From Azorinus chamasolen (taxonomy: Eukaryota; Mollusca; Bivalvia; Cardiida; Solecurtidae): 64,000 bases of DNA. How positions within the stretch are numbered: position 1 is the first letter of the stretch; the number at the start of each line of letters is the position of its first letter. The position numbers and the translations under genes are program-made. The stretch is taken from contig OY755246.1 in NCBI GenBank assembly GCA_963576725.1, positions 78,313,475 to 78,377,474 on the forward strand, in the 5' to 3' direction. The notes beneath the pieces were generated by a model that had not been told where the DNA came from, did no database searches, and worked only from the letters and a program-made list of their open reading frames with translations. This document shows positions 38,088-64,000 of the stretch, piece after piece.

Positions 38088-38089
38088 TT

Positions 38090-39150: not shown

Positions 39151-39151
39151 C

Positions 39152-41535: not shown

Positions 41536-41718
41536 ATATCTAGTAAGACACGCATAACACTACATGCTGGCAACAAACTTGTGATAACTTATGCAAAACA
41601 ATTGGTGTCTCATCCTCAACAGGTCATAACTGTTTGACAATCTGACTACATTTTCAAAAGAAAATGAAAGAAAACCTTATATTGAGAATTATAATACACA
41701 ACAATTACTTAGCATACA

Positions 41719-41966: not shown

Positions 41967-41984
41967 CTGATGTAATAACAAGCT

Positions 41985-43745: not shown

Positions 43746-43824
43746 AAGTAATTATTGTATTTGGATGCAAACACAGAAGTCTCCCAACCGACACCCCCAT
43801 AGCAGAATTCAGGCTTTCACAATT

Positions 43825-44230: not shown

Positions 44231-45000
44231 ATATAGTGATTCAATTCTGAATACTCTGAATTTTCATTATTTTTGCAATTTATCGATATTTCCAAAGAAA
44301 CTGTTTAAAAACAATAAGTCACCAAATGTCATTTGATATAAAATATTTAATTAATAATAACATTAACAATAATAAAAAGAAGAAACTGAGAAAGCTGTTT
44401 CCCACTATCTGTCAAAGTTTTTCCTTTTTGTTGCCTTGGCAACCACAGTTGTAAATGCAATACTATCTTTTTTAAACAAAAATGTCAAAGCGGACCTAAC
44501 AAGGATTATTACATGTATTTTGAAATTTGGTATTATAATTGACTCAGGTATGTAAGATGTTGCTTGGGGACCAGTTGCTTGAAGAACTAATAAGTTACAT
44601 GTACTGTATGTCTAAAATTTGGCACATTTCCTAAATAAAGTCAAATGTGAATTTTAAATTAACACCAAAAGTGCAAGACACAAACTGAAACACTGATTCT
44701 TACACCTCAAATGTGAATACATATAATGACGTCTGCTCCAAAATTGTCAACTAACCATTATATTGACGTCTGCTCCAAAATTGTCAAACCACTATATATC
44801 ATATATTAATGGCTGCTAAAATATATCACATAACTGTGAAATTTATTTATATTGATGAAACTTTTACAATACAGAATTATATTTTATCAAACAGTTTTGT
44901 TTCTGATACATTGTAACATAATGTCTGATTTGGATCCAAACTGTTTGTAAATTTGCCAAACAAGTTACAAGTTGTGATAATGTCAGCATAAAAAGTGTTT
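44231..45000. other. AT-rich stretch downstream of the TRIM-like gene
   Basis: No gene, MITE or array was recognised. A short direct repeat TGACGTCTGCTCCAAAATTG occurs at about 44729 and 44764. A family-3-like core GTTTGTTTCTG...GGATCCAAACTGTTTG lies near 44895-44950. Confidence 0.5.
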
Positions 45001-45009
45001 ACTTACCTC
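45001..45009 (-). promoter_or_regulatory. Consensus 5' splice site downstream of the stop
   Basis: On the minus strand the sequence reads GGAG|GTAAGTAA, an excellent splice donor 23 bases after the TRIM-like stop codon. If used, it would define a 3' UTR intron. Inference from sequence only. Confidence 0.45.
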
Positions 45010-45028
45010 CATGTTTTTGTGTCCTGAC

Positions 45029-45034
45029 TTTATT
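45029..45034 (-). terminator. AATAAA overlapping the stop codon
   Basis: The minus strand ends GTTGAATAAAG: the TAA stop lies inside a canonical AATAAA polyadenylation hexamer. Whether it is used is unknown; the donor site just downstream argues for a longer 3' UTR. Confidence 0.4.
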
Positions 45035-46763
45035 CAACCTTGTACACTTTTATTTTGTTGCAGTAGTCAGGTTCTACACTGTAACTACTGATATAAAGTC
45101 TGCCAGTGTCATATGTTATGGTGTCAGGAAACAGGAGCCCGTCCTTGTCCACTAACACAATCTTAACCAACTGCCCACTGGGCGTCAGCTGATGTACACA
45201 ATGGTTCTTTTTACTACACACGTACACATATCCATTGTCATCCACAGCTATTCCCGATGGCTCCTGTAACCTATCATGTACATATGTCCACATAACTACA
45301 CCATCTCTATTTAAACACACCATTTTGTTGTCTGACCAAACACTCACGTAGATGACATTGTTATCTTCACTCAATGTTATGTATGAAGGATAATTTACAA
45401 ATAATTTGTTTCCTGTGTTGTCTGAGTCAATTTGTTGTAATAAGTTACCAGTCATGTCGCAAATATGAACTGAATTAACAGGATGAGAACAGGCCAGGAA
45501 GAACTTTCCTTCATTATAAGTGAGGCCGCCATAACAACCTGGTACAGTTATAGTGTGACGCGCTGATAAAGTTGGTGACACAGACAGGAACTGGATACGC
45601 TCGACACCATCCAGCGTTACTGCCAGCTGGTCATCACCAACCATTGTAATGTCCCACGGCTCTGTTGTTAATGTGACTTTCTCAGATTTTTTTTCATCTG
45701 TCTTGTCTATAATCTTAACACATTTGTTGTCATAATCAGTCACTGCCAGTCTTCCATCTTTCAATACAACAACGCCAGTAATGCCACAGTTGTCTGTATC
45801 TGTAGATGTTTTCATGTTGATGTCATGGAGGTACTTGACAGATGCTGGTTGGTCAACCGGTGATAGAATCCCGAGAGAAGTTAACGATGTGGTAAGCGAA
45901 TCAAGCTGGTCATCACGGTTTAAGACAAATCGTTGTGGTTTGATGGTTTGACTTATACTGGCGACCTCTTGCTCCAACGCCGAAATCCTATCTTTGGCAT
46001 ATTTCATGGCGATGAAGAGTTTGTTGTAATGTTTCAACTCATCTTTTCTGTCCATGTCGGAGCTCATTTCTTTTACGTCTTTAATCAGGTCATCCAGTAT
46101 CGGTGTTTGTTGTACAAGAGAATCTAAATGTTCTTTTCGTTGTCTTGAAGCGTTCTTGAGCAAATTTGCTTCCAATTTATCGAGAAGTTTGTTTATGTCT
46201 CGTCTGAATAGTTTCACATTTGCCACGGCATGATCATAACTATCGTTAGTTTCTTGTTGACACCATTCTGACCGACTTTTATTGAACTCTAATCCAGCGA
46301 TGAGTCTTTTGGTATCTCCGCGTATGTTTTTGTATTCTTCGCTGCTTGCGGTTGAGCTGGAAATCTCTGGTATGTAGGACACTTTATTTCTACAGTCTCC
46401 ATGATGTAAAGTAATGCAGACACTGCACCCAAGTTGTTGATGAGGGTTACAGTAGAATTTAATGGGCTCATTTGGGTGTTTCTGGCACAGGTCCGTCAGT
46501 GGGTCAGCAGCCCCAGAAGCCCCTGGCTGTTGTTTTCTGCCTTTTGGTGTGGTGGACATTGTCGACGTGTCCTGAACAACATGGTTACTTGAAGCAGACA
46601 ACTTTTTATGGAAGTTGTTACATTCAGAACAGAAATATTCTCCACAATTCGTACAATACACGACCGCATCCATTCGTTTATTGTCTTTGATACACAAATC
46701 ACAGATAATGTCGAAGTCTTCCTCCGACCCCGCCATGAGCGTTCTTCTGAAAACTTGCGACAT
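45030..46763 (-). CDS. TRIM-like protein: two B-boxes, coiled coil, beta-propeller; no RING
   Basis: A 577-residue intronless frame. Residues 21-61 form a B-box 1 type zinc site (C21, C24, C37, C40, C45, C48, H52, H61). Residues 93-124 form a B-box 2 (C93, H96, C105, H108, C113, C116, H120/H121, C124). About 150-285 is charged and helix-prone, probably coiled coil (RKDELKHYNKLFIAMKYAKD). About 320-577 has repeated blades such as GVVVLKDGRLAVTDYDNKCV and GIAVDDNGYVYVCSKKNHCV, an NHL-like propeller. This B-box-coiled coil-propeller plan is a large, often intronless family in molluscs related to TRIM2/3/56/71. Without a RING, ubiquitin ligase activity is not expected from this protein alone; a scaffold or immune role is family-based inference. 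An in-frame Met at residue 10 is an alternative start. Confidence 0.88.
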   Translation of the reverse strand: MSQVFRRTLMAGSEEDFDIICDLCIKDNKRMDAVVYCTNCGEYFCSECNNFHKKLSASSNHVVQDTSTMSTTPKGRKQQPGASGAADPLTDLCQKHPNEPIKFYCNPHQQLGCSVCITLHHGDCRNKVSYIPEISSSTASSEEYKNIRGDTKRLIAGLEFNKSRSEWCQQETNDSYDHAVANVKLFRRDINKLLDKLEANLLKNASRQRKEHLDSLVQQTPILDDLIKDVKEMSSDMDRKDELKHYNKLFIAMKYAKDRISALEQEVASISQTIKPQRFVLNRDDQLDSLTTSLTSLGILSPVDQPASVKYLHDINMKTSTDTDNCGITGVVVLKDGRLAVTDYDNKCVKIIDKTDEKKSEKVTLTTEPWDITMVGDDQLAVTLDGVERIQFLSVSPTLSARHTITVPGCYGGLTYNEGKFFLACSHPVNSVHICDMTGNLLQQIDSDNTGNKLFVNYPSYITLSEDNNVIYVSVWSDNKMVCLNRDGVVMWTYVHDRLQEPSGIAVDDNGYVYVCSKKNHCVHQLTPSGQLVKIVLVDKDGLLFPDTITYDTGRLYISSYSVEPDYCNKIKVYKVE

Positions 46764-46990
46764 TTTCTATATTTTATTTTCTTGTTTGTTTTTCTCTTCC
46801 TTGTTCACGCCCCAGACGACAAAGTAGGGAAGGTATAATTTGAAACGCGGGACCTTTTGCGGACATTTTTATAGGGTGTGCCATTCATGAATGCATTTTT
46901 TTCTTCGTTGAAATTGAGTCAGCCATTGTATCAGATCTATTTGTCCCAACATTAGAGAAGTAGATCTAGATCTACTGCATTGTAGATCTA
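46764..46990 (-). promoter_or_regulatory. Probable 5' flank of the TRIM-like gene
   Basis: On the minus strand this lies upstream of the ATG. No clear TATA box at a convincing distance; the segment next to the ATG is AT-rich (AAAATATAGAAAATG). Only its position supports a promoter role. Confidence 0.35.
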
Positions 46991-47052
46991 GATGTATAAT
47001 AATAATAATAATAATAATAGATCTAATAATAATAATAATAATTATAATATAT

Positions 47053-47095
<43 letters not shown>

Positions 47096-47175
47096 TAACA
47101 ATAATAATAATAATAATAATAATATTGATAGATCTAATAATAATAATTATAATAATAGATATCCAATAATGATAA
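46991..47175. repeat. (TAA)n microsatellite
   Basis: About 180 bp of imperfect AATAATAAT with interspersed AGATCT motifs, upstream of the TRIM-like gene. Confidence 0.95.
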
Positions 47176-47387
47176 AAGATCATTATTATCCTCGAGTGCC
47201 CAGTTCCGAAGCACATTTGTAAACAGGTTCTGCTTTGTGTGATTGTGACATGGTTTGCAGCTTAGTCAAGGGAAGTAATTCATGCGTCTTTCTGTACTGG
47301 ATTTTGCACCAGTTGCCTCCCATTGACCGTCATTGTGCATGTATGTAGCTAACTTATTTGAAATATACATGTATAAAAATGCCCGTT

Positions 47388-47960
47388 GACCCCTTTCCCT
47401 GTTCTGTATTATGGAAGAAATAATGACAACATGAACAGGTTTATAATATAAACTTTTCAAGCGAACTTTTTGCTTTGCCAAAAACTGCAGAATCAGATCT
47501 GATTTTGAGTTGAAAGTCACCGTAACCTTTACCTTTAGCCGACTTACCTCAAAATTAATAGGGGTCATCTACTGGTCATGGCCAACCTTTCGACTAAGTA
47601 TGTAGACATGAAGTTATTGAGCGGACAATATTTTTGAGCTGACGGTCGCTGTGGCATTGACCTTTGTCAAACTGACCTCAAAATAAATAGAGGTCATCTA
47701 CTGGCTATGACCAACCTTCCTACTCAGTATGAAGATAGCACACTAAATAATTATAAAGTTATTGAACGAACATGTTTTTTTTATTGAAGATCACTTTGAC
47801 CTTAGACCGAGTGACCTTAAAATCAAAAGGGGTCATCTACTGGCCATAAGCAACCTTCCTACTAAGTATGAAGACAACACACTAAATAATTATAACGTTA
47901 TTGAGCGGTCAAGACTTTTGAGTTTAAGGTCATTCCAAGCGCTGCATGACCGAATCACTC
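47388..47960. repeat. Partial family-1 MITE, then about 150-bp tandem units
   Basis: CCTTTCCCTGTTCTGTATT and AACTGCAGAATCAGATC mark a MITE left half to about 47500. Then three units share AGGGGTCATCTACTGGCCAT, CAACCTTCCTACTAAGTATG and AAGTTATTGAGCGG. The ORFs here are shadows. Confidence 0.7.
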
Positions 47961-48041
47961 TATATGTATTTGTAAACAATGGCAGAAACAGTCGTCAGCT
48001 TCAGCATGTGTCGCTTTCTGTGGCACTTTTTAAGGGTCATG

Positions 48042-48253
48042 CATGGAAGGGCGGTGTGACATGCTAAATGCGAAATGCCAAATGCGATTGTCATTTGATA
48101 TACATAAAGTGGGATAAAGATATGCGTAAACTTGGAGACAAACATTTGTTTGCATTTTAAAGATTGGGATTTAATTAGATTCTAGGTTTTTCCTAAAGCA
48201 CAGGTATTTCGCATTTAGGATTTCGCATTTAGCGTGGCGCACCTGCCTTCCAT
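48042..48253. mobile_element. Fold-back element with AAATGCGAAAT arms
   Basis: Left GGAAGGGCGGTGTGACATGC then TAAATGCGAAATGCC; right GATTTCGCATTTAGCG then TGGCGCACCTGCCTTCC, reverse-complementary with few mismatches over about 45 bp. Length about 210 bp. Confidence 0.75.
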
Positions 48254-48359
48254 AGTTATGTGATAACAATAATCTTACATTCGCGTTCGTTAATAATTGT
48301 TTTTATGAAACTCAATTACTATAATGAATATGACACTCTCTAAAGCTCGTGTCATGGTA

Positions 48360-48736
48360 CAGTAAAACCTCTCCATAACGGCCACTATTACATCAAGTAT
48401 TTTATGCTAAAGGCATGTTGCTGCTTAACCTTTGGCCTGCTATGGGCGGATGGTTGAATACCAATGCAAACAGTTTGGATCCAGATGAGACGCCGTGTAA
48501 CGCAGCGTCTCATCAGGCCCCAAACTGTTTGACACCCTCTTTGTATTTTGGTAGACACGTTGATATTATAGCTTGAGCTTTGAAAATGTATTTGCTGAAG
48601 AATTCTGTAAAAATAATTTGCTCAGCGGGTTAAAGGTTAAAGCAATGTGAAAGAAAACAGAACGCTTTAAGCAGCCACCTGCCTTAAATACCAACTAATT
48701 AACACTATTTAGTGGCCGTTATAAAGAGGTTTACTG
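48360..48736. mobile_element. TA-flanked MITE family 4 interrupted by family 3
   Basis: TA|CAGTAAAACCTCTCC at the left and AGAGGTTTACTG|TA at the right. The interior runs GGCATGTTGCTGCTTAA and resumes TTAAAGCAATGTGAAAG after the 48425-48640 insertion. Intact relatives read GGTTGCTTAATGCAGGG at this point, so TTAA was duplicated. Confidence 0.9.
48425..48640. mobile_element. TTAA MITE family 3, nested
   Basis: TTAACCTTTGGCCTGCTATG to GCGGGTTAAAGGTTAA, hairpin AACAGTTTGGATCCAGAT with CCCCAAACTGTTTG, GAGACGCCG/GCAGCGTCTC. Same family as 39152-39365, opposite orientation. Confidence 0.9.
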
Positions 48737-48794
48737 TATTATAATAAACTCGTTCCATAAAACAATTTGAAATGGACATTCATGTAAGACCATA

Positions 48795-49240
48795 TGTTAC
48801 CCCCATTGATACTCAGGTAACAAATAATGACATTATTATTATTATTATCTATCATCTGATATTTTAACATGGCGTTTGAACACAGACAGCTGTGGCAGAA
48901 TCAGACCCAAACATTAGCTATAAATAAACAGAAAAGACCCTGATCAGACGGCTTCTGTAGGAGCCATCTGATGTATGTCTACTGTATTTGCAAAGGTGTC
49001 AAAATGCCGACTTCGTGAGGAAAAGGGTTCAACCTTATTGTGCTGAAATACAATATCTACTCAAACTCAAATTCAGCCATTGCTTACCCTTTACCCCATG
49101 AATATTTATTAAGAAATAATAAGCATATGAATATTCATTAACTGTAGTTGCAGAATGGCATTATGAAGAACGGGTTTTTTTTAACAATGGCAGAACTTGT
49201 AGACTCATATACGAGTTCAACAATACAGAGGAGTTGAAGT
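48795..49240. mobile_element. One complete and one partial family-1 MITE
   Basis: 48795-49032: TTACCCCCATTGATACTC, GAAAAGACCCTGATCAGACG, GTAGGAGCCATCTGATG. 49083-49240: TTACCCTTTACCCCATG, TGAATATTCATTAAC, GGCAGAACTTGTAGACTC, lacking the stem. Confidence 0.65.
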
Positions 49241-49610
49241 TTGCAACTAGATCCATAATAGGTGGTTTCGACAAAAACTGGTACAAAAACATTTATCAGG
49301 AATGGATCCACAGGCACAGACGTTGTATAGAGTGCAGCGGCGAGTATTTCGAAAAGATGTGACGTGAGTTTTGAAAAACAACGTCGATGACGTTAGGTGG
49401 CGTGTTTTACTGTGCGCCGTCGTAGCAATGGTTATGTAGCATAACATGATATATCTAGTGAACCAGCTGACTGATTGTCTAGATCTTTTAGACTATTGCT
49501 GTATTAAGGTTGGGCTACCCCATATTATGTAGCCATTAACTATCATGATAAATAACTGTGTAAAATGAATTGTCTACGTAATTTTTGAATGGCCCTCGTA
49601 CATGTATATA
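49241..49610. other. Stretch without recognisable features
   Basis: Contains GTGACGTGAG and GATGACGTTAG motifs near 49360-49395 but no open frame with homology, no array and no inverted repeat that I could find. Confidence 0.4.
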
Positions 49611-49809
49611 CTTAACATATCATTAGCAAACAGAACAGACCCCGATAAGACGGTTCCTACATGAAACGTCTAACCAGGGTCTACTTTGTTTGTAAAGGCG
49701 TAGAAATGTGTATTTATTGAATAATGGGTTCAAGAAACTATTGACCGAATGTCAAATAGCTTGGATTCCAAGTTATACAGAAACTCATACAGAAGAAAAG
49801 TTTTCGTTT

Positions 49810-50090
49810 TGCAGTTAAACAACCACCTGCTTTTAAAGATAGCACTTTCTATTAATGAAGTGCAGGAGATTTTTTTGTATAACTCTCTTGTTGCATCAAG
49901 CAACCATTTAACTGCTTTTAGAGATAGCACTTTCTATTAATGGAATGTAGGAGTTTTTTTGTATAACTCTCTTGTTGCATCAAGCAACCATTTAACTGCT
50001 TTTAGAGATAGCACTTTCTATCAATGAAGTGCAGGAGTTTACTGTATAACTTTCTTGTTGCACCAAGCAACCGACTCTTTTGGAGACAGA
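49810..50090. repeat. 84-bp tandem repeat, about 3 units
   Basis: AACCATTTAACTGCTTTTAG, AGATAGCACTTTCTATTAAT and AACTCTCTTGTTGCATCAAG recur at about 84-bp spacing. AACCACCTGCTTTTAAAG at the left suggests it grew from the right part of a family-4 MITE. Confidence 0.85.
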
Positions 50091-50114
50091 ACTTTCTATT
50101 CATGAAATAGATCT

Positions 50115-50291
50115 GGGCCCATGCCTATAAAGCTTTTAGTTGAGTCTGAGTTTCGTTCTCAGGCTTTTGATTGGTCAGATTTGAGTTCTCAAGCTTTTGA
50201 TTGGTCAGATTAGAGCCAAAGGCTCAAATCTGACCAATCAAAAGCTTGAGAACGATCTCAGACTCAACTAAAAGCTTTATAAGCATGGACC
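50115..50291. mobile_element. Fold-back element with repeated CCAAT boxes, copy 2
   Basis: Ends GGGCCCATGCCTATAAAGC and GCTTTATAAGCATGGACC; interior GATTGGTCAGATTTGAG and CTGACCAATCAAAAGC. Same family as 6422-6598. Confidence 0.85.
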
Positions 50292-50299
50292 ATAGTTGT

Positions 50300-50780
50300 T
50301 TTAGAGAGGCTATACTGTATATTGTTTGTGTACAACAGAATATTGGGATCTGGCGTTGTTTCTTGAATTTAGTCGTATCATGTAGTAAAATACAAAAAAG
50401 TTACATATTTGAATAAACAACGGGTCATAACGCTTAGTCCGATGTCAATATGAATGATACATGCAGGCCAACATACCATTGTCAAACTGAACATTTACAC
50501 AAAGTTTCAAATGAAAACAGTTTCTGAGATATGACCCCTGGACAGACGGACGTATGTTTAACAATGCCAAAACGACGTCCCTCAGTCTTCGGAGGGGAAA
50601 ACAACACATCTTTGATATAAAATTCAGAGCTACAGATAAACATGCGTTCTCAAATACAGTACTATAAAGCGTGATTTCTCCACCAAATTGTATGTTGTGA
50701 CCACTCTTTAGAATCTTCTCTTCGAGATTATTCTAAAAAGTGGTCACAACAAAGGAGTTGGGGTGAGAAATAAAGAAGTT
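50300..50780. other. Truncated tandem-core element and family-5 MITE
   Basis: 50420-50600: CGGGTCATAACGCTTAG, AAGTTTCAAATGAAAACAG, GGACAGACGGACGTATG, a single worn unit with its microsatellite remnant. 50672-50775: GTTGTGACCACTCTTTAG and AAAAAGTGGTCACAAC, family 5. Confidence 0.6.
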
Positions 50781-50929
50781 ATTCTAGAAAATGTTTTAAT
50801 TGGCGCGTCTTATCTGGCCCTCTGTAAATACAAACAATGTCCAACTTTTCTTTCAAACTTGTTTGATGTGGTAGTGGTAGGGACACTTTATTGTTGCCGA
50901 CTAGTTTTACTGGCAAACGATACAGATAT

Positions 50930-51420
50930 ACATGTATACATTTACTCCGAACGCATATTCAACATCTGTGTCTGCTCTGTTTGCAAACGCATGGAAAGAC
51001 GTTTAAATGAAGGAAAAGGATTAGGCATATACGACTTTAGCATGAGTGTTGTACATTCTTCTTAACCCTTCACTTCATTAATATTCATGCAAGACTGTTG
51101 TACACTTTTTTCTAAACTTTTACTCCATGAATATTCATGCACGGTTGTTGTTACTTCTTCTTAACCCTTTACTTCATGAATATATATTTGTAAAATGCAA
51201 AACTCAATCTATTATGGTTCATTATTAATATAATGATTGCACTAAAACAGAGATCGGGTAAACTACAGACAAACTAAGCAGACCTTGAACAGACAGTTCC
51301 TACAGGAGTCGTGTGATTTGGGCTACTCTGCTTACAAAGGTGTAATAAGGCGGGGAATATTAGGTTATACCATAAGCAAGCAGAGCAGACACTGATCAGA
51401 TGGCTCCTACTGGATTAATA
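50930..51420. other. Fragments of family-1 MITEs
   Basis: Three left ends in a row at about 51063-51185 (TTAACCCTTCACTTCATTA; CTTTTACTCCATGAATATTC; TTAACCCTTTACTTCATG), a tandem of MITE starts, then ACTAAGCAGACCTTGAACAG and TACAGGAGTCGTGTG. No coding sequence. Confidence 0.6.
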
Positions 51421-51893
51421 TGTTATTTTCATAATAAAATCAGTGTTTCTTATACATCTAAGAACTTCAATGAAGTTTCAAATCAAACACAATTCTTAAT
51501 GTTGAGTTATATGAACGATACAGGAACTTAATCCTTTACTTCACAAATATCCACGTACTGATAATGACGTCATGATAAATAAGATATTTTAAAAATTCTG
51601 AAGGGAGGTGATCCCCGAGAGCAAAAATTGCAACACAAAAAGAGAAAATTGCAGACTCGGTTTTATTGAGTCTGTTCATGAACAGTAATTGAAAGTGCAA
51701 CACTGCTCACGCCCTCTAGCACCGGCTTAAGCAGTATTCAATTTTCAGAACAAGTACTGAAATTCATGATCTCGAAGGACACACGAGCTGAGAAAATGTT
51801 GACCATGGCAGAAACTGTAGAATCCTACCTATATTACTTCCTAAGCAAACGGTGTAGCATAGCTGACACGCATAATTAAACACCTGACATTGA
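51421..51893. other. No gene recognised
   Basis: Mostly non-descript DNA with worn MITE pieces (ATCCACGTACTGATAATGACG near 51550; GGCAGAAACTGTAGAATCC near 51810). Confidence 0.4.
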
Positions 51894-52335
51894 GGTCTTG
51901 TGGATCAAATAAACACCAGACAGTGACGTCATGTGGATCACCTGACAGTGACCTCACGTAGATCCAATAAACGCCTGACTGACAGTGACGTCATGTGGAT
52001 CAAATACCTGACAGTGACGTCACGTAGATCCAATAAACGCCTGACTGAAAGTGACGGCATGCGGATCCAACAAACGCCTGTCAGTGACGTCATGTGAATC
52101 AAAAAATACCTGACAGTGAGATCATGTGGATCCAATAAACACTTGACAATAAGACCATGTGGATCCAATAAACACCTGGCAGTGAGGTCATGTGTATCCA
52201 ATAAACGCCTGACAATGACGCCATGTGGATCCAATAAACGCCTGACAGTGAGGTCATATGAATCCAGTAAACAACTGACAGTGACGTCATCCAGTATAAT
52301 AAACATCGGACGTCATGTGGATCCAAACTGTTTGC
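51894..52335. repeat. 30-40-bp minisatellite with CRE octamers
   Basis: About 13 variable units of CTGACAGTGACGTCATGTGG plus ATCCAATAAACGC. Perfect TGACGTCA octamers at 51924, 51986, 52015, 52085 and 52282; other units have one-base variants. Minus-strand frames across it are period artefacts. It lies about 5 kb upstream of the TRIM-like gene. Confidence 0.93.
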
Positions 52336-52399
52336 AAATATCGTCACTATTTGTCTCATAGATTGATGTGACAAATCTTGCATTAACCCATCGTTATGA

Positions 52400-52700
52400 A
52401 ACAAATCTAATTAATATACATGTATATTCATTAATATCCCGTCGTATTTCTAACATGAATATTCATGGTTTTTTCCTTTAATCTGCTGGTGGATAAGTGA
52501 TTACCTACGCAAACGGTTTGGATCCAGGTCATTAGACGCCGAATTACTCATTAGGATCCAAACTGTTTTATCCTCTGATCGTGTTTTACAAAACGAAATG
52601 TAGGATAAATCAGCTGTGACCAATTTCAAATGCTCTATATATCACAATCGTTTCAAAAAGTGACTCTACCAGAGGTGTCAATATGAGGTAATGGGTTACA
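52400..52700. other. Worn MITE pieces of families 1, 3 and 2
   Basis: AACATGAATATTCATGG near 52453 (family 1), CAAACGGTTTGGATCCAGG and AGGATCCAAACTGTTT (family 3, 52510-52570), CTCTATATATCACAATCG with ATGAGGTAATGGGTTA (family 2 right end). Confidence 0.6.
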
Positions 52701-52875
52701 TATGAATTATAGAGATACATGTATCACTAGTGCAAAGTACGTAATACTAAAAGGTGTCCCTTAATGCTCTGTACTCGGGCCTCTAGTTTTTTTAGCAGTA
52801 CTTCAAATAACATCTTTTATTCTTTTAAAAAGCCTACACTTGTCAACTATGCAGACGACAATACCCTATAGCATA

Positions 52876-53122
52876 CAACCATCAAAGGTGCCCGATGCAT
52901 TCTTGGACTCACACATGGACCCCCCCCCCCCCCACCCCCCAATTTATTTTTTAAAAAAATCGTCTTTTTCTTGGTTTTCAGGGTGGTTTAAGGTTCAAAT
53001 AGATAGTTTTAGGCTAGTTTTACATACTTAGATCACATTGTTCATTTTTTTTGTTGGGGGGGGGGGGGGGGGGGGGGGTCCGTGGGTGAGTCCAAGCATG
53101 CATCGTGAACCTTTGACAACCA
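52876..53122. mobile_element. Fold-back with poly-C and poly-G in opposite arms
   Basis: Left ATCAAAGGTGCCCGATGCAT, TCTTGGACTCACACATGG then a C run; right a G run then GTCCGTGGGTGAGTCCAAGC and ATGCATCGTGAACCTTTG. The arms are reverse-complementary over about 45 bp including the homopolymers. Confidence 0.8.
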
Positions 53123-53139
53123 TAAAATCTAACAGAATT

Positions 53140-53318
53140 TAAACCATGTCCACATAGGCTATTTTTTTTATCCAACCTCTTTGACTAAATCTGCCAAAAA
53201 GGAGCATTGACTAGAGAAAAGGATTTTTTTTCAGAATTGTGTAGTTTTGAATTGAGCATTTGCTCATGTGGACTTATACAGAAGCGTCAAAAGGCGTCGA
53301 TATGCGGGAATGGGTTAA
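53140..53318. mobile_element. TTAA MITE family 2, centre deleted
   Basis: AAACCATGTCCACATAGGC, CTGCCAAAAAGGAGCATTG, GAGCATTTGCTC, end GGGAATGGGTTAA. Confidence 0.7.
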
Positions 53319-53339
53319 AAAGAAACACTTCAAACAGAA

Positions 53340-54090
53340 TGTCATACACTCACACAATGGTTTGATGGAAACCAAATGCAAGCAAACCCAGATAAATGCC
53401 AAACTATTTATGTGGGTGTAAAAGCAAACAAAGACACAAAATCCTTCCATGTTGGTCAAAATGAAATTGTCTGCGAGGAGGAAGTCAAATTAAATGGTGT
53501 CAAATTAGACCATAAACTGAACTTTGACTCACAGGTAACTGACATATGCAAGACAGCAGCTAAACAACTACATGTGAATGCTTTACAGAGACTTGGCAAA
53601 TTCATAAAAGAACCCAATAGATTACGTATCTTTAAATCTTTCATCAGATCAAATTTACTATTGTCCATTAATCTGGCACTTTTGTAGCAAAACAAACACT
53701 GAAATCTGATATAGAGCCCTTAAGACTGCGTATAAGGATTATACATCATCATATGAAACACTCCTGAATAAATTAAACCTATATACCTTGAACCTCAACA
53801 GGATGAGAACTATTGCGATTGCATGAATAATTTATCAACAGATTATTTACAATAATTGGTGGAACATAAACACACTGCCTAGTACTTCAGATCTCAGAAT
53901 ACACTGGAGATCCCTAATGCACGGACAGTTAGGTATGGGGCTAATTCATTTAGCTTTGAGACCACCAGGGTGCGGAACAGCCTTCCAAACAACATAAAAA
54001 TCCTCGATAGATATAAAGACTTCCTAAGGCTGATTCGCACCTGGACAGATCCCAAATGTGGATGCGTGATGTGCATGCAAACCTGACCTG
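53340..54090 (+). pseudogene. LINE reverse-transcriptase C-terminal relic
   Basis: Reading frames join as WFDGNQMQANPDKCQ, EEEVKLNGVKLDHKLNFDSQ, VTDICKTAAKQL, FIKSFIRSN-type sequence, then after frameshifts and stops YGANSFSFETTRVRNSLPNN and IKILDRYKDFLRLIRTW, ending DPKCGCVMC. This is the end of the reverse transcriptase ORF of CR1/jockey-like non-LTR retrotransposons, and KCGCVMC is a typical 3' tail (family knowledge). Multiple stops make it inactive; the 5' part is missing, as usual for LINE copies. Confidence 0.85.
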
Positions 54091-54514
54091 CATTTACTCT
54101 GTGATCAATGCAGTTTTATAGTGTTTCTCATTGCTTTTCGCATTTGTGTCTTTAGTTTTGCATGTATTATATGTAATCCAATGTCTGCCATTGTCAGCTA
54201 GACATTACACATACCTACATTTTGTGATAAGAATTTTATACTTGTCCTAATAGTGATAAGCATACTGAAATAATATTTGTATAACAGAACTGTGATAAAA
54301 TCAACTTTACAACAGCCTCTTAATTAATTTAACTTGCAAAGGGTTTGAATCCAGATCAGATTTGCCTGGGCATTGACCAGGCACCAACATTTTAGTCAAG
54401 TCAATCCCGGCTAATCTATCTGTTATATAATAGTATTGTTAGTCCTGATTTGTATCGTTTGTGACAACATTTGACGTGTAAGTATGTCTTGGGATGGGAG
54501 AATATCGCATAGAG

Positions 54515-55168
54515 TTTAGCACATGCTTTACATCGTCGCTGTGCTATTAACCAATAAGGTTGCGACATTTCAGGGCGTTGGCGTCAATACTATATTGCGT
54601 AAATTTCTGCCCATTTCATCGATAAATGACAGCTGTGAATAGCAACTGGCAATGCATTTATCGGTGATAAAAAAAGAAGAAAATGCGGATTATGAAAACA
54701 GTGCAAATACAATAGCAACGTTCTTAACGAATTACTAAATACAATTCTATTTGTTTGAATAGTAAAACTTTTTGAAACGATTATGTTAAAAAGATAATTT
54801 GCTCGAAAGGATCTACGGCTTCAGGGCAATTAATCCTTGAGAACACTCATTTTAAGATTATACAATGCAAAGTTTTTAAACAACTGAATAATACGTCGAA
54901 ATTTACTAGAACAGTGCAGATACAGTAGCACCCTTCTAAACAATTAAAATAAAAAAAAATACAATTTACACATATTTCCAAATAAAATTGTCTCCAATAT
55001 ACGTCGAAATGCACTGTTTCGTCTGTCATGTTTCACTGAAGAATGAGGCTTGCGACAAACCTTGTTTATTTCAATTTACCTGATCGAACCGCTTCAACCA
55101 ATCAATATGGTTTGCTTTGCAATATTTTGGCGGGAAAATTGACGGCGACGGTAGAGCATTGTGCTAAA
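54515..55168. mobile_element. 654-bp TIR element (copy B only)
   Basis: Left TTTAGCACATGCTTTACATC then GTCGCTG; right CGGCGACGGTAGAGC then ATTGTGCTAAA: imperfect inverted repeats of about 26 bp. The interior has two related segments (CAGTGCAAATACAATAGCA; CAGTGCAGATACAGTAGCA). It separates two stretches that are contiguous in copy A. Confidence 0.7.
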
Positions 55169-55544
55169 TAGCTCAGAGCATGTTTATTTCATACTACAGA
55201 ATATAGTGCTCTCGGCGCGTCCCGTTTTGGTGTGGTGTGTGTGTGTGTGTACATGTACATCTAAGGATCATGAAGTTGTGCATACCAGTTTCTGTGCACT
55301 GCGACCGTGACATTTGTCCTAAATGATAGAAAAAAGTGAAATAAAAATTAGTTTTTACATTATATCCACATTATTGTATCATTGTTTAATTAACTTTATT
55401 TCAAATTGAGGTCACACTGTGCAGTTTTTCAGATTTATTTAGCAATAACATATACTGGCCTGCCTACAAAATGCATTTCAATATCAATGCTTTGCTTTGG
55501 GGACATTTGCCATTTACGGTGACATATTCCTTGTTTTATTTCAG

Positions 55545-55713
55545 GTAAAAAATGTTAACTCTCACATGCTTGAGAACAGAATGGAGAGCTTTTTTCTTGC
55601 TGAGACAGCAAAATACCTGTACTTGCTGTTTGATCTAGACAACTTCATTCACAACACAGGTGATCACGGCACTGTAATAAATACACCCAATGGACAGTGC
55701 ATTATAGACACAG
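55545..55713 (+). CDS. EDEM2-like exon, copy B
   Basis: The acceptor TTTTATTTCAG|GTA and donor GACACAG|GTGGGT are intact and the length (169) and phase equal copy A. The one amino-acid change is Pro to Leu in LLFD(P/L)DNF; human EDEM2 also has Pro there. Splicing from the 12408-12529 exon would be in frame. No B-specific upstream exon is visible in 25-55 kb, so alone this is only a 3' fragment. It may be an alternative terminal exon set, an unexpressed partial copy, or a second haplotype. Confidence 0.75.
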
Positions 55714-55849
55714 GTGGGTATTAACTTTTACAAAATGAATTGTCATATTGAATAATAAGTTTATTTATCTAACTCTACTGTCTTAGAGACAATTCTAAAG
55801 AGCGGTAACAGTATATGATTTTTGTGGAGAAATTATGATTTTATCCCCC

Positions 55850-56075
55850 CACCCCCGAGCATATTGTTGTTTTTAGCCCTGCCTGTAGTTTGGTTGGTTT
55901 GTGGAAAACGTTTTCGTTTGTGATAATTTTGTAGCCATTGCACATACAAACTTCAAATTTGGCATGCATGTGCAACTTATGGAGGTGATATTTTTTAGGG
56001 ATAACTTATTAAGGCCAATGTCATACATCAAGGTCAAAGGTCAAATTTGGGGACATAGTGTTTCACAAACACATC
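55850..56075. mobile_element. Truncated CATTGGTCATAAC-type element, copy B
   Basis: AGCATATTGTTGTTTTTAGC to GACATAGTGTTTCACAAACA with one worn unit. Counterpart of 15860-16095. Confidence 0.65.
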
Positions 56076-56159
56076 TTGTTGTATTTGCGAACGCATCTTT
56101 ATCTGTTGCTCTGATTGTCAGTGATGGTTTTATTGACAGTCCATTCTATTTGGAAAAAT

Positions 56160-57330
56160 GTTAAAGAGCTTGTTTTTATTCCATGATTTTTTATGAAAGA
56201 AGTAATGGTATGATTAATATTATTCTATAAACGCATATGAACACAAGCATGCTTTTACCATGGCAAAACTTAGACTCAGATTTATATTAATCGTAAGCAA
56301 ACAGAGCAGACTCTGATTAGACGACTCCTACAGGAGCTGTCTGATCTGAGTCTACCTGGCATAATCAAGCCATTCTGAATGCTGAACACTTGTTAATCCT
56401 TTAGTCCATATAAATATGCTGTTCTATACCTTTGCAAACTGAATAAACCCAGATCAGAACACTCCTGTAGGAGCCATCTGATCGGGGTCTGCTGTTTCCT
56501 AATAAAATGATTAGATTCTTCAGTTTTTACTTTGGCCTAAAAATCCCAGGTCCATTATAAAAATAACCTACAGTAAAATCAAGAAAATTCGAAGCACACA
56601 AACTTGAAATGACGAGGTAACGCATACAGGGTCTACAGTCCAGACACATTTTCTTCTGTTTTCAGTGTTTATGAAATGTAAAAATTATATCAATATTCAA
56701 GATACCATTATTTTTTACATGAATATTCATGGAGTAAAAGGTTACATTTTCTAAGAGTGGCTACAGTAAACATTCAAATAGTATTTACTTTGGATAAGGT
56801 TGTTTAACCTGCTGAATAATTATAAGTGGCTATTCCCTCTCTGAATATTAATTAATCAACAAATTGTATCAAATCTTATCACAGAAGAAAATGATTTTTA
56901 TGACAAACAGTGTAGATCCTTGTCAATGGGCTCCAATGGAAGCTCTTTGGTCTGGGTCTATACACTGTTTGTTAAGGTTACATTTTAAGGGTTTACAGTT
57001 ATTTAGCTGTTCTATTAGGAAAAGGTTCTCTCTGTTTGTAAACAGTGTAGACTAGACCATTTATAGATTCAGAAATTATAAGGATCTACTCAATACTATT
57101 TGAAGCTTCTGACTTTTCTCGGGCATTTTTTAGAGTTCAGCATGTAAAACTCAGTGGTTTAGCATTTTTGGTCCCATGTTAAATAATTTTGCATTTTCAT
57201 ACCCACGCAAACTTGTTTTCAAGAGGGGTTATACTGCAATCACTCCTCTGTCAGTCGCGCGGTCTGTTTGCATTTGAACATGGGAAATTGGTGTCAGAAA
57301 CTCCTCCTTAATTTTCAAAGTTATTGAATT
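56160..57330. other. MITE cluster specific in part to copy B
   Basis: 56160-56385 is a family-1 MITE shared with copy A (GAGCAGACTCTGATTAGACG). 56395-56745 is a reverse family-1 copy with ATGAATATTCATGGAGTAAA. 56840-57060 has two worn cores (AAACAGTGTAGATCCTTG; AACAGTGTAGACTAG). This replaces the 30-bp minisatellite and three MITEs of copy A. No coding sequence. Confidence 0.6.
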
Positions 57331-57593
57331 ATATAAGCAAAAACAGCAGACCATGATCAGACAGCTCCTTCAGTGATCTTGTCTATGTCTTAAGTCATAT
57401 TTATGTAGTAAAGAGTCAGCCCTTTACTCCATAAATACGCCTTTCAACATATTGGCAAACAGAGTAGACCCAGATCAGATGGCTCCTGTAGGAGCAGTCT
57501 GATCAGGGTTTGCTCTGTTTGCACAAAATAGATGATTTCCCAGTGTGCAATTACAAATAAAATGATATAGTCAATATTCATGGTGCCTTTTTT

Positions 57594-57716
57594 GTGTCAC
57601 CTGCCTAGAGGCAGTATGCCACATAGGGATCACTTTTCATTGTCTGTCTGTCTGTCTGTCCATCTGTCTGTCCTTCACACTTTTTTAATTCTAACACTTC
57701 TTCCAGCAGGTGACAC
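57594..57716. mobile_element. TGTCACCTGCC...GCAGGTGACAC element, intact
   Basis: GTGTCACCTGCCTAGAGGC, (GTCT)n and CCAGCAGGTGACACACG, about 120 bp. It shows the empty site of the 1.57-kb insertion found in copy A. Confidence 0.8.
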
Positions 57717-57832
57717 ACGTGTTCCTTTGAACACTCTGGTTTTCTTACATGAACATGGAATAAAGGGCTAACATGCAGAGAATTTGAGTAAAAAGCACAA
57801 ATTTTGTTTGTTTCTTTCTTTCATTCTTTTAG

Positions 57833-58743
57833 GTAGCTACATTTTTAACACTGAGGGCCACCCAATAGACACAGCGGCATTGCATTGCTGCAGCGCAGAG
57901 AAAAAAGAAGAAGATATCGCCATGGAGAACTTCCATGATAACCTTGACCTTTTGTCACTTTTTGGAATCTCAGACGATCTTGACATTATTGAAGATGTCA
58001 AATGGACTAAAACCCATGAAGCAGAAACCAACGATATGCAAGAGTTTGCAGAAGCCTTGCTGCAAGGGAAGAATATTATAAATCCTTTAAAGGGAGATAA
58101 TCTAGGATCAACAGATACTAAGAGAGATCATCAAACATTAGTTTCACAAAAAGGATATGCAAAGGATGTGAAGAATATGAAAATTACCATCACTGGAGAT
58201 AAGGTGAAAGTAGAAGATCTAGTAAATTCAGTTGATGAGACTTCTGATATTGCAGATGAAGTGTCAGACACTTCAGTAGATGATAGTAAAAATGATCCTG
58301 AAAATGTTGAAGTCTGTGATGAAAATGGAAACTGCAAAATTGATATGAAAAAGGAGACGGACAAATACACAATACCAATGAATAAAGAGGATACAGATTC
58401 TAATACAGACAATCTTGATGATGCAGTTGAAAGAACTAGTTCAGATAAATCTTTTAAAATTAAAGATATTCCAAATGATCCTATAAAAGATGATACACAA
58501 ACTATTCTGCCTTTACCTGCCAAGTCAGGATCTAAGGCAGTAAAAGATGTGATAGAATTGTTAAAAAGTTTTACTCAAGATATATTAACTAACAGTGGAA
58601 TGAAAAGCATCAAATCACTGCATGAAAAACTGAAATATTACAGTTTATATCACAGACACAAGCCAGAACTGATGACCTGCAAAGCTCAACCATTCCATAT
58701 GAGATACTCCTTAATGGGTGAAATGTTTTTAGATAACTCCTAG
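57833..58743 (+). CDS. EDEM2-like terminal exon, copy B
   Basis: Acceptor TTCATTCTTTTAG|GTAGC; 302 codons and TAG. Relative to copy A: 11 replacement and 4 silent changes and an in-frame 9-bp deletion removing three residues (AFT). Every replacement is in the acidic tail; SYIFNTEGHPID, AALHCC and the terminal TCKAQPF...MFLDNS are unchanged in protein. An upstream frame opens from a TTG in the intron and runs into the exon; this is read-through, not a start. The same MITE follows the stop. Confidence 0.78.
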
Positions 58744-58761
58744 CAAATCTCATAATTTTGT

Positions 58762-59250
58762 ATTAACCCTTTACTCATGAATATTCAGGTAAGAAATAAT
58801 GAGATCATGAATAACAATGAGATTTTTTTATTATGGCACATGAACAGAGGAATGTTCAACCATGGCTGAAACCATAAATATTATCTGTATTATTTCATAA
58901 GCAAACAGAGCAGACCCTGATCAGACAGCTCCTGTAGCTACAGGAACCATCTGAACTGGATCTACTCTGTTTTCAAAGGCTTATTTATGGAGTAAAACGT
59001 ACTCTTTTTCGGCCAAGAAATTGTTTACCAAAAAACAAGTTGTCTGTTACAATTTGATTCGTTACATTATTAATACTTTACTCCATGATTTTTTGGCCAA
59101 GACAGAAACTGTAGAACCAGACGGTACTAATATGTCATAAGCAAACACAGCAGCAAACACAGCAGACCCTGATCAGATGATTCCTGTGGGAGCCGTCTGA
59201 TCTGGGTTTAGTCTGTTTGCAAAGGTGTATTTATGGAGTAAAGGGTTAAG
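58762..59250. mobile_element. Two family-1 MITEs after the copy-B stop
   Basis: Counterparts of 20849-21092 and 21160-21334: TTAACCCTTTACTCATG, GCTCCTGTAGCTACAGGA, then AATACTTTACTCCATG and TAAAGGGTTAA. The insertions predate the copy split. Confidence 0.8.
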
Positions 59251-59605
59251 AAAACAAACATTTTTGATTCTGATGAGTGACTGAGTTTTCACAAATTTGT
59301 TGCTATTGTACCAGGTGCTAACCCATTACTTCATAGAAACGCCTTAGCTAAGAGCAGACCCTGATCAGACGGCTCCTGTAGTCTGGTGTGGGTCTGCTCT
59401 GTTTACTGACAAATCATCTGTTCTATTTTGCATAGCTGTGCACTCACTTGGTTTATAAAATAGTAGATGAGTACATTATGCCAGGAATATTCATCGAGTA
59501 AAGTTTTAAATGAATGAATGAATGGATGAATGTATGTATAAATGAATGAATGATGTAATCTCTGGTTGCAATATTCAAATGAATCCTACTGTATGTCAAC
59601 CAGCC

Positions 59606-59839
59606 TTAACCCATTCCCTCATATTGACACCTTTTAACTTCTCTATAAAGTCACTTTTTGAAACCGTTGTTTATAAATACTTGTATAGCATTTGTTCCAT
59701 AGGAGCAACTGCTCTATTTATCCCAATGGTTTCAAAAATACGCAGTTCTAAGATTTTCCTTTTGTCTATTAAATGCTCCTTTCGGTTGATTTATTCAGAG
59801 AGGTTGGATTTAAAAATAGTCTATGAGGGTATAGGTTAA
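59606..59839. mobile_element. TTAA MITE family 2, copy B
   Basis: TTAACCCATTCCCTCATATT to GGGTATAGGTTAA; centre GCATTTGTTCCATAGGAGC. Better preserved than 21689-21903. Confidence 0.75.
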
Positions 59840-59927
59840 AGCTTTGCTAATAGTGTGTCATGATATTTATAAAACTCCTAAGGAGAAACGAAAATTGGTT
59901 AGTTTCTTGAATATTCCTATAAATTGT

Positions 59928-60222
59928 CTATCTATAGCTGTTACAGGGGAAGTCCCTGACCCATCTATCTATAGCTGTTACAGTGGAAGTCCCTGACCCA
60001 TCTATCTATAGCTGTTACAGGGGAAGTCCCTGACCCATCTATCTATAGCTGTTACAGTGGAAGTCCCTGGCCAATCTATCTATAGCTGTTACAGGGGAAG
60101 TCCCTGACCCATCTATCTATAGCTGTTACAGGGGAATTCCCTGACCCATCTATCTGTAGCTGTTACAGGGGAAGTCCCTGACCCATCTATCTATAGCTGT
60201 TACAGGGGAAGTCCCTGACCCA
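59928..60222. repeat. 37-bp minisatellite, about 8 copies (copy B)
   Basis: Same unit as 21995-22917 (CTATCTATAGCTGTTACAGG, GGAAGTCCCTGACCCAT) but about one third the length. Confidence 0.95.
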
Positions 60223-60419
60223 ACTTTCAAAAACATTCTCAACCTGAACAACACTCGACCTCAAATTCGAACTCAATTCTGTCTCATTTGAAAGCAGGGC
60301 ATGGCCATGATTGTAGCAGTTTGGGTCCAGATAAGATAACAGATTGAGGAAACTGGGAACCTGTTTAACACTGTGACAGAGTAAAATATAAAGGTGCAAG
60401 TTCAAAGTTCAAATACTAA

Positions 60420-61110
60420 AATCAGCATTTCTCCATTAAGCCCTATGCTGTGAACCTGTGACCACTCTTTAGAATCGTCTCAAAGTATCGTTACAACACA
60501 CAGTCTGTAGGAGAAATAAAGGAGCTATCCATAAAAATGTTCTTGCTTATTACAGATAAAGATGCATACCCAAATACTTAAATAGCCATTTCTCTACAAA
60601 ACCCCAAACCCTATACCGTGACCACTGTTTAGAATCGTCTCTTCAAGACAATTCTAAAGAGTGATCACAGTACATGTATATGGTTTGGTGGAGAAATAAA
60701 GGAGTTATTATTGAAAATGAAAATGTTTTGCTTTGATAAAAACAATAGATCTGTATAATGTCATAATTAAACAGAGCAGGTCCTGACCAGACAGCTCCTG
60801 CAGGAGCCTTCTGATCTAGGTCCACTCGGTTTGCAAGTGCATGAAAACACATTTATATGAAAGAAAGGTTTTAACCATTTCTTCGCCAAATAAATTTCAT
60901 CTACTAAGATATATGGTTGTCTTCTTCGCGTTCAAACTGGCGATTTCTTTATATTTTTTTCTCAAAACTATATACATGCAATCAGTAGCAAACAGTTTAG
61001 AATCCTAGAGGGAGGTGTTTGGCGTCTCCCCTGGATCCAAACAATTTGCAAAGGTCACAGTTTCGCCTACAGAGGTGAAATAGTTGAATTTTGTAAACAC
61101 CAGAAATACC
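60420..61110. mobile_element. MITE families 5, 1 and 3, copy B
   Basis: 60455-60720 family 5 (GTGACCACTGTTTAGAATCG, CAATTCTAAAGAGTGATCAC). 60765-60875 family 1 with the full stem GACAGCTCCTGCAGGAGCC, whose right arm is deleted in copy A. 60985-61060 family-3 core. Confidence 0.65.
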
Positions 61111-61116
61111 ACATCA

Positions 61117-61343
61117 TTAACCCATTCACTCATATTGACGCCTGTTGGAGCCTCTGCAATAGTCACCTGTTGAAACCATTTTGATAAATAGAGCATTTGC
61201 TCCTATAGGAGCAAATGCTCTATTCATCACAATGGTTTCAAACTACAGAATTAAAATTGTCCTTTTCTCTAGTTAATGCTCCTTTTCTGTAGATTTTTTC
61301 AAAGTGGTTGGATCTAAAAATAGCCTATGAGGTAATTGGTTCA
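61117..61343. mobile_element. TTAA MITE family 2, copy B
   Basis: TTAACCCATTCACTCATATT, perfect AGAGCATTTGCTCC / GGAGCAAATGCTCT centre, end GTAATTGGTTCA. Counterpart of 23672-23906. Confidence 0.8.
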
Positions 61344-61513
61344 GCCCAACTTTCAGCTCCTTATAAATTTCATCTCCTGAGATATACTTTTATCTGCTTC
61401 AGGGGTCAAAGTGGCATTATAATCAGTGTCAACCAGTTTGGATCCTGAGAGGAATGAGCTTGGCGTCGCCCCTCAATTGAAATTGTTTGCAGTAGTTATC
61501 ATGAATTTGCCTA

Positions 61514-61707
61514 CAGTAAAACCTCTCTAAACCGGCTGTTAAATTTAGTTTAACTAACAATCTTAGAGACAGGTGGCAGCTTAATGCAGGGTGAAACACA
61601 TGCAGAAAGAGCTTTCTGCATGACTTTCACTCTGCATTAAGCAGCCACCTGCCTAAAAGTATCAAAATTCTTCTTTACTAGAATTCCATTTTAGAGAGCT
61701 TTTACTG
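61514..61707. mobile_element. TA-flanked MITE family 4, complete reference copy
   Basis: TA|CAGTAAAACCTCTC and GAGCTTTTACTG|TA, 194 bp; GGTGGCAGCTTAATGCAGG, GCAGAAAGAGCTTTCTGC, AAGCAGCCACCTGCC. In the 1.5 kb missing from copy A. Confidence 0.88.
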
Positions 61708-62620
61708 TATATGGTTGAGTTTTATAAACAACAGAAAGACCACACCATTAAGCGCTACTTACCTACGCTAATTTTAAAAGATGACGAGCTATGACAGATG
61801 ACAAATGACCTCTGTTGCAAGAAATAATCTCCTAGAAAAACTGTCATACAATCCTTCATGTACACTGTACACCTTTTCAAGAGGCCATTTTATGAATTAT
61901 TTAAAGCAGGTGGTTACTTAATGCAAGACAAAAGAAATACAGATGGCTCCTGTATGAGCTTACTGTATTTCTTTCATCCTGCATTAAGCTTCCACTTGCC
62001 TTTAACACATTCTCTCGCATAAAACACATTTTCACGCATTTGCGAACAGACCCTGCTCTATTTGCTTATGAAATCTTAGAGTTTGGCAAAGATTTTTTTT
62101 GATCAATCATCAAGTCGGATATTTGAAAAATATACCCGATTTAATTGTTAAGCGTTCGAGATTTGGCGAGACTTTCATTCTTAATACACTTGGACTTTGA
62201 TATTTCATTATTTACTCGTCCTGGAAAAACTTTCATACAACCCTTGATGTACACTGAACCTCTTTTAAAGCGACTACTTTATGAATAATAGCATAGGTGT
62301 CTTTAACCCTTTCCTCCATAGATATGCCTTTGCAAACAGAGTAGACCCAGATCAGATGGCTTCTATAGGATCCATCTGATCAGGGTCTGCTTTGTTTGCT
62401 CATGAGATAATATAGATATAATTCTACTGATTCTGTCAGGATAAAAATCCTCTGTTCATAGTGCCATTATAAAAGTTCATGACATCAAAAGTAATGCAGA
62501 CTGCTTTTGCATGAGTTTACTGCATTATTTTCACCCTGTATTAAGCTACCACCTGCCTTTAACCCAATCCCTCTTATAAACAGCCTTTCAACACACAGTC
62601 AATAGATTCAAGTTGTTTGA
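61708..62620. other. Non-coding, worn MITE pieces (copy B only)
   Basis: 61900-62005: GCAGGTGGTTACTTAATGC and GCATTAAGCTTCCACTTGCC (family 4). 62299-62420: TTAACCCTTTCCTCCATAG, AACAGAGTAGACCCAGATC, GGATCCATCTGATCAGGG (family 1). 62480-62560: second family-4 remnant. No coding sequence. Confidence 0.6.
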
Positions 62621-62623
62621 CAT

Positions 62624-62950
62624 TCAGTCGCCAGGAAGGTCTGGAAGGTGACCGGTTTTAAGAACATTATTAAAAAGATGTCTGTAAATCGGCAAACATA
62701 TATTCTCAGTGCTTTTAATGTATTCACTAATTATTCTGTCAGAGGGGCTAGGAGTCTTGGCATTTTTTAGGTTTCGAATATGGGTACTTATTTCTTCCTC
62801 TGTAATAGGGGCATTAAGCATTTCTTGGCTATTCAATAGAAAGTTTTCGGGAAGGGTAAATTCCACATCCAGGTCCACTCTTTTATTTCGATTTTTGAAA
62901 AATTCATAAAATTCCTCTGTAGAAGGAGTTTCTGACGGAGTTTGCCTTTC
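62624..62950 (-). pseudogene. LINE ORF2 fragment upstream of the RT core
   Basis: The minus strand reads RQTPSETPSTEEFYEFFKNR, NKRVDLDVEFTLPENF, then APITEEEISTHIRNLKNAKT and ICLPIYRHLFNNVLKTGHLP. The ITEEEI...LKN.K.....D.I..E..K pattern is the linker just before the reverse-transcriptase core in non-LTR retrotransposons (family knowledge). Truncated on both sides. Copy A lacks it: its deletion junction GAGCTTGACAGACTATTTAC joins sequence that here is 1.47 kb apart. Confidence 0.8.
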
Positions 62951-63306
62951 AGACTATTTACTGAATTTCCAAAATTGTTTAAGGTTCTTGCTATGAAGGT
63001 AACGCAAAATTTGGCAGATTTCGAAAATTTGTGCCATTTAATATAAAAATCCAGTCTCCGTACATTGTCTCCCCCAGTATACTGGGGAGACATTTTGTTT
63101 TTTGTGTTGCATCGGCCGTCCGTCAGTCCGTCCGATTTTACAACCTTTGATCAGATTTTCAAATATTTTAATGAAACTTCATAGGATTGATGAGCACTAT
63201 GCCTAGTTGTGCATAACTTATTTCTGTTCTGATTCAATGATTTTCTGCACAGTTATTGGACTTAAATGATATAAGCCTTTTGATACTTCACTACTGCTGA
63301 CATCTC

Positions 63307-63510
63307 TTGTATGAGAATAGGCGACGTATGTGGTGCCCTCATCAGGAGCTAAATGTTGTTTGGTACCCTGTTCAAGGTTTTAACCTTTTGAATGCTGGAA
63401 ACCTGTGTACTGAAAGGAAAATGCTGTCAGTCGCCCATAGTGAACCTGATATAGACAGAGCTGTGGACGTGATTGTAGACATTGGACCTAAACACAGGGT
63501 CATCAGATAA
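63307..63510 (+). CDS. Putative terminal exon, class-III aminotransferase-like, copy B
   Basis: Same frame as 24386-24589: GFNLLNAGNLCTERKMLS, then VAHSEPDIDRAVDVIVD and HRVIR with stop. Four replacements relative to copy A by eye (G/V, I/V, F/I, L/V), no frameshift. TTG at the apparent start means no independent gene is shown. Confidence 0.38.
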   Translation: MYENRRRMWCPHQELNVVWYPVQGFNLLNAGNLCTERKMLSVAHSEPDIDRAVDVIVDIGPKHRVIR

Positions 63511-63619
63511 AAATGAAATCAATGTGTAAAGATCACATTTTTTATTTGAAGAGGACTCGTATCAAATCAAATATTATCATCAATTTTTGACAATGTTTAT
63601 TCAAGAAATGTATTTTTTT

Positions 63620-63821
63620 TAACCCTTTCCCTGTTGAATATTTCTTTAAGACCATCGGAGCATTTTGGTTTTGTACAAACAGCAGTCAGATCTATTGAAG
63701 TTTCATAACCAAACAGAGTAGACCTTGATAGGATAGCTACAGTAAGAGCCACCTGATGAGGGTCTACTTTGTTTGCATAGGTGTGAAAAAACGTGTGTAT
63801 GAGGGAAGAGGGAAAGGGTTA
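63620..63821. mobile_element. TTAA MITE family 1, copy B
   Basis: TTAACCCTTTCCCTGTTG to GGGAAAGGGTTAA; counterpart of 24697-24898 with very few differences. Confidence 0.8.
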
Positions 63822-64000
63822 ATTATTTGTTTCCATAGATACGTTTTATTACTTATAGTTGTTGCTTAAAATCACAAACATTAAACATACAGTACAACCT
63901 GTCTATAGAGACCACCCAAGTCTTATTCTACTTTTTTAAGACAGATGGTACCTTCCGTATTCTATGTTTATTCAAAATTTCAATACCTATGAATGTTCAT

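Follow-up and report, generated by a model that had tools for sequence, protein, structure and literature searches.

Introduction

Tandem segmental duplications place two collinear direct copies side by side, and where their edge falls within a gene a partial copy of that gene results. In genome assemblies, false (haplotypic, heterotype) duplication can look similar; high heterozygosity is given as a cause of it in the part of PMC9516828 that deals with this question. A false duplication would be expected to show an assembly gap between the copies. Two kinds of gene are relevant to the locus described here. EDEM2 belongs to the GH47 family, whilst TRIM-NHL proteins are defined by RING, B-box and NHL repeats; a B-box zinc-finger orthogroup is named in a table row of PMC8382680. 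A literature search for partial duplication with alternative last exons returned a gene-fusion tool as its sole match.

The window, meaning the whole stretch of 64,000 nucleotides of Azorinus chamasolen DNA that was analysed (C12:78313475-78377474), contains two copies of the last two exons of EDEM2 and a B-box/NHL (TRIM-like) gene. As described below, these lie in a repeat considerably larger than the part visible in the window.

Results

Extent and structure of the repeat

The window was compared with itself together with 30 kb to its left and 90 kb to its right (184 kb in all), and genome searches covered 1.72 Gb in 137 contigs. The self-comparison revealed two direct tandem copies, unit A (~15.15-52.2 kb) and unit B (~55.23-93.4 kb), separated by a short spacer.

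15153..52190, no strand assigned: unit A, its right end blurred by a minisatellite (to ~52375)
52376..55229, no strand assigned: spacer between the units, ~2.9 kb, unlike the flanks of A or B except for dispersed repeats
55230..64000, no strand assigned: unit B, in-window part, continuing to ~93.4 kb (C12:~78406900)

A collinear chain of 28 blocks (26,190 aligned columns, 94.6% identical) connects the units from 15.2/55.3 kb to 52.2/93.4 kb; the final two blocks and a few internal ones amount to weak repeat matches, while two strong blocks were omitted by the chaining rule, 22589-23464 and 24027-28507, that are present in the self-comparison. Summed over blocks, 29,870 of the 37,038 bases of unit A and 29,523 of the 38,152 bases of unit B were aligned. 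Given the collinear chain, a chance origin of the repeat is excluded.

That the final two exons of EDEM2 recur in direct orientation together with their surroundings, as originally predicted, was confirmed by the self-comparison, but the end assigned to the repeat at 25.08/64 kb is a mere window edge and the prediction covered only the first quarter of the repeat. The left edge proposed at 54.465 kb did not hold either. The match there is only 48 bp long (15054-15101 to 54464-54511) and lies within a dispersed repeat that has 32 matches in the 184 kb examined, on which ground a break at this point was rejected; non-repeat homology begins at ~15153/55230. The sequence had been described as continuous and without N, and indeed none occurs anywhere in the window, including between A and B. 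The sole N run in the 184 kb is 200 bases long (97866-98065). Apart from dispersed repeats, the flanks of A and B are non-homologous.

A mosaic of divergence between the units

Substitutions per aligned site between A and B amount to 8% around the penultimate exon, 14% immediately past it (in a stretch overlapping a dispersed repeat), 5% at 17.8-18.2 kb, 2.9% around the last exon, 4-5% at 22.6-24.0 kb and 3-6% in the later blocks, with a tract of far lower divergence in between.

24027..36223, no strand assigned: low-divergence tract, 0.5-0.6% substitutions

Within this tract, a near-identical core of 6.2 kb (25708-31887) shows 3 mismatches and 3 indel events. Insertions present on one side only measure 1573 and 1849 bp (A) and 1487 bp (B), the 1849-bp and 1487-bp insertions precisely bounding the 24.0-36.2 kb tract. 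The mosaic fits exchange between tandem copies, a duplication formed from two different haplotypes, or haplotypes that the assembler left uncollapsed.

Each of the A-only insertions (18183-19755 and 36224-38072) contains a minisatellite (~155-160 bp), and we take them to resemble the minisatellite-bearing mobile elements of bivalves. The B-only insertion (61463-62949), at the start of the low-divergence tract, carries a minus-strand open frame, presumably reverse-transcriptase-like, for which Pfam gave no match.

One set of upstream EDEM2 exons and two copies of the last two

The EDEM2 exons on either side of the duplication boundary, all on the plus strand, are as follows.

12408..12529, plus strand: final EDEM2 exon before the duplicated part, ending in phase 0 at donor GTAATG, recognised by GH47 profile (C12:78325881-78326009) and splice context
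15472..15640, plus strand: penultimate exon, copy A, recognised by GH47 profile
19911..20830, plus strand: last exon, copy A, 920 nt with stop
55545..55713, plus strand: penultimate exon, copy B, with 2 synonymous changes and one Pro-to-Leu change relative to A
57833..58743, plus strand: last exon, copy B, 911 nt with stop, with a 9-nt in-frame deletion

The GH47 profile gave 34 matches in the genome, 7 of them on C12. The upstream GH47 exons of EDEM2 were found once (C12:78293560, 78298440, 78303887, 78306617 and 78325881), the remaining two C12 matches being both copies of the penultimate exon, and a second set of upstream GH47 exons was not found by this genome-wide profile search. Inspection of open frames by eye added three further EDEM2 exons. 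When the protein of the last exon was searched against the whole genome, with 17 of 17 candidates scored, it matched at these 2 positions, and no third EDEM2 tail was found elsewhere.

Both penultimate exons are 169 nt long with an identical AG acceptor and GT donor, and both last exons are preceded by ...TTTTAG and finish at the same stop, giving two-exon tails of 362 residues (A) and 359 residues (B). The claim that the copy-B exons retain acceptor, donor, length, phase and stop is therefore correct except for the length of the last exon (911 vs 920 nt). The reading frames also bear out that the exon ending at 12529 joins either copy in frame. With splice sites, phase and stop intact, the copy-B exons have the form that functional alternative last exons would be expected to have.

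By bit score, the closest relatives among the matches listed are bivalve EDEM2 proteins, from Mercenaria (68% across 84% of the query), Mya (62%) and Dreissena (63%), and none of the 120 matches listed is near-identical, the best reaching 77% across 65% of the query or 68% across 84%. Among solved structures, the penultimate exon matches EDEM1 and class I mannosidases; the last exon gave only 2 weak matches (best E 0.7).

Upstream of the duplication, EDEM2 has Met at window positions 5531-5533, vs Trp in 82 of 82 matched relatives (DDWYxW), and Ala at 5597-5599, vs Gly in 114 of 116 (WPG), both tallies being regular-expression matches and not alignments. With two almost invariant upstream residues changed, EDEM2 may be evolving unusually in this species. 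An EDEM2 intron also holds a 0.95-kb direct tandem repeat, 99.6% identical (8105-10016).

Possible constraint on the copy-B exons

The penultimate exons of A and B differ at 3 of 169 sites, vs 41 of 271 sites in the intron upstream of them (Fisher p = 1e-6), and the last exons at 15 of 911, vs 45 of 1302 in the flanks (p = 0.011). The outcome of such comparisons depends on the neutral rate chosen. With the flanks taken as neutral and copy B alone changing, the penultimate exon would be expected to carry 12.8 changes, against 3 seen (p = 0.0012), and the last exon 15.7, against 15 seen (p = 0.49); at the rate of the TRIM block (3.6%), the 3 changes of the penultimate exon match the 3.0 expected. 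Across 359 codons of the two tails, NG86 gave dS 0.029 and dN 0.014, a ratio of 0.48 (bootstrap interval 0.18-1.79, Fisher p = 0.14).

When the amino-acid changes between A and B were compared by eye with 11 relatives, the Pro/Leu site of the penultimate exon alone seemed usable for polarising, because the acidic tail is too variable. Among 105 scorable relatives (120 listed, 15 without the motif left out) this site holds P (55), T (31), E (7), V (4), Q (3), K (2) or H, S and I (1 each), and Leu was found in none of the 105. Constraint on the exons is visible, but it could predate the duplication if A and B began as working alleles, and therefore gives no proof that copy B is used.

The sequence after the stop that is common to A and B differs at 38 of 1151 sites, with candidate AATAAA signals at 23174 and 23354 after copy A and at 60515, 60695 and 60889 after copy B. 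As both copies have these signals and the post-stop sequence, copy A's own 3' end would normally halt the transcript first. Copy A most likely still provides the end of EDEM2, and the copy-B exons are probably idle, or supply a rare read-through tail at most.

The B-box/NHL gene and its family

45030..46766, minus strand: B-box/NHL (TRIM-like) gene, copy A, 578 aa stop to stop (the B copy, C12:78400420-78402153, lies outside the window)

The TRIM-like gene had been pictured inside a 43-kb EDEM2 intron, an arrangement that arose because the window edge hid the rest of the repeat; the gene instead belongs to unit A and recurs in unit B as an intact copy, 92% identical. Pfam NHL, zf-B_box and ANCHR-like_BBOX matched the ORF above their cut-offs, whereas RING is not one of the 15 families reported for the ORF alone at E values up to 1. 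For the pair, dS is 0.039 and dN 0.045, a ratio of 1.18 (0.72-2.29; Fisher p = 0.77) that is indistinguishable from 1.

Across the genome, genes of this family lie at 75 or more places (17 on C12 within 5.5 Mb, 77.4-82.9 Mb; 57 on C16; 1 on C18), a lower bound in that 75 of 1315 candidates were scored and all 75 matched. No stop interrupts 74 of the 75. Among the 75 scored, the nearly intronless members form clusters at C16:24.5-37.7 Mb (57 places) and C12:77.4-82.9 Mb (17). Members at 78.56 and 78.65 Mb have in common with A and B ~1.86 kb of gene (92%) and a minisatellite. Other family copies carrying the whole unit were sought around these members (30 kb around 78.56 Mb, 4.7 kb around 78.65 Mb) and rejected, the best 40 matches comprising gene and minisatellite only.

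Discussion

The observed extent, order and copy number of the units point to a genuine direct tandem segmental duplication of ~38 kb in an expanding gene cluster, in which the 3' end of EDEM2 was carried along and is probably idle; we regard this as the likely explanation. The duplication would have arisen where B-box/NHL genes had multiplied, with one break in the intron of EDEM2 that separates 12529 from 15472, so that the unit came to include the final two exons of EDEM2 and a complete B-box/NHL gene. The copies probably exchanged sequence afterwards, by gene conversion or unequal crossing-over, which would have left the near-identical core, and copy B would be an intact 3' fragment that lacks its own upstream exons. 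Consistent with this are the non-homologous flanks bounding both units with no N between them, the B-box/NHL gene present in both, and the single upstream set of EDEM2 exons set against two tail places. Against it count the 200-N gap, which means that the contig ends nearby, and the patchy divergence of 0.5-14%, which could also mark two haplotypes.

It is possible, though we would not favour it, that the duplication came about by unequal crossing-over between already divergent haplotypes, A and B having begun as alleles, so that both the mosaic and the exon constraint predate it; this course of events is counted within the likelihood we give to a genuine duplication. It would account for the divergence mosaic with its near-identical core, for exons conserved in both copies while introns differ, and for the one-sided insertions, but it is indistinguishable here from gene conversion following an ordinary duplication. 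Unlikely, by comparison, is an assembly artefact in which divergent haplotypes of one locus were placed in succession. Allele-like divergence in patches together with numerous one-sided insertions, an N gap ~4.4 kb right of B and the role of high heterozygosity in false duplication (in the portion of PMC9516828 concerned) speak for an artefact, whereas substitutions of 8-14% around the penultimate exon, the gapless 2.9-kb spacer joining the copies and the non-homologous flanks speak against it, and the latter two favour a real duplication.

Two EDEM2 isoforms appear improbable. They would be made if transcripts running past copy A spliced 12408-12529 or 15472-15640 to the putative copy-B exons, a slightly different tail being kept by selection. 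The intact frame, stop and splice sites of B, the paucity of differences in both exons relative to intron and flanks and the dN/dS of 0.48 are in keeping with this, and the stronger conservation of exons than flanks fits use of copy B as well as idleness. Yet the interval on that ratio spans 1, the changes in the last exon equal those expected of copy-B drift at the flank rate and those in the penultimate exon the expectation at the TRIM-block rate, and Leu is unseen at the Pro site even though V and I occur. Moreover, B has no upstream EDEM2 exons, and transcription would have to pass the AATAAA candidates of copy A and its whole 3' end. An EDEM2 with a second 3' cassette 40 kb away under selection, and a young B-box/NHL gene on the opposite strand between, would be more improbable still.

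Our knowledge of EDEM2 itself is unchanged by the duplication. The locus offers an example of a repeatedly duplicating gene cluster that drags along the end of a neighbouring conserved gene, and it carries two warnings: the copy-B exons risk annotation as an EDEM2-like gene in its own right, and intact exons with sound splice sites say little about use if the copies began as alleles or were converted.

In comparison with known systems, the exon copies cover the tail and the final part of the GH47 domain, as in EDEM2, but copy B consists of the last two exons alone. The TRIM-like ORF resembles clustered B-box/NHL families in its domains and its many clustered copies, and TRIM-NHL proteins in its B-box and NHL repeats, but differs in that no RING was found in the ORF. 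False duplication, as described in the relevant part of PMC9516828, shares adjacent copies, patchy divergence and an N gap not far away; here, however, the sole N run lies right of B, no gap separates the copies and the flanks are non-homologous. As in tandem segmental duplication with a partial gene at its edge, two collinear direct copies stand side by side with a whole gene inside, and of the cut gene the 3' end alone was copied. From that pattern the locus departs in nothing essential, its marked mosaic and near-identical 6.2-kb core being its particular features.
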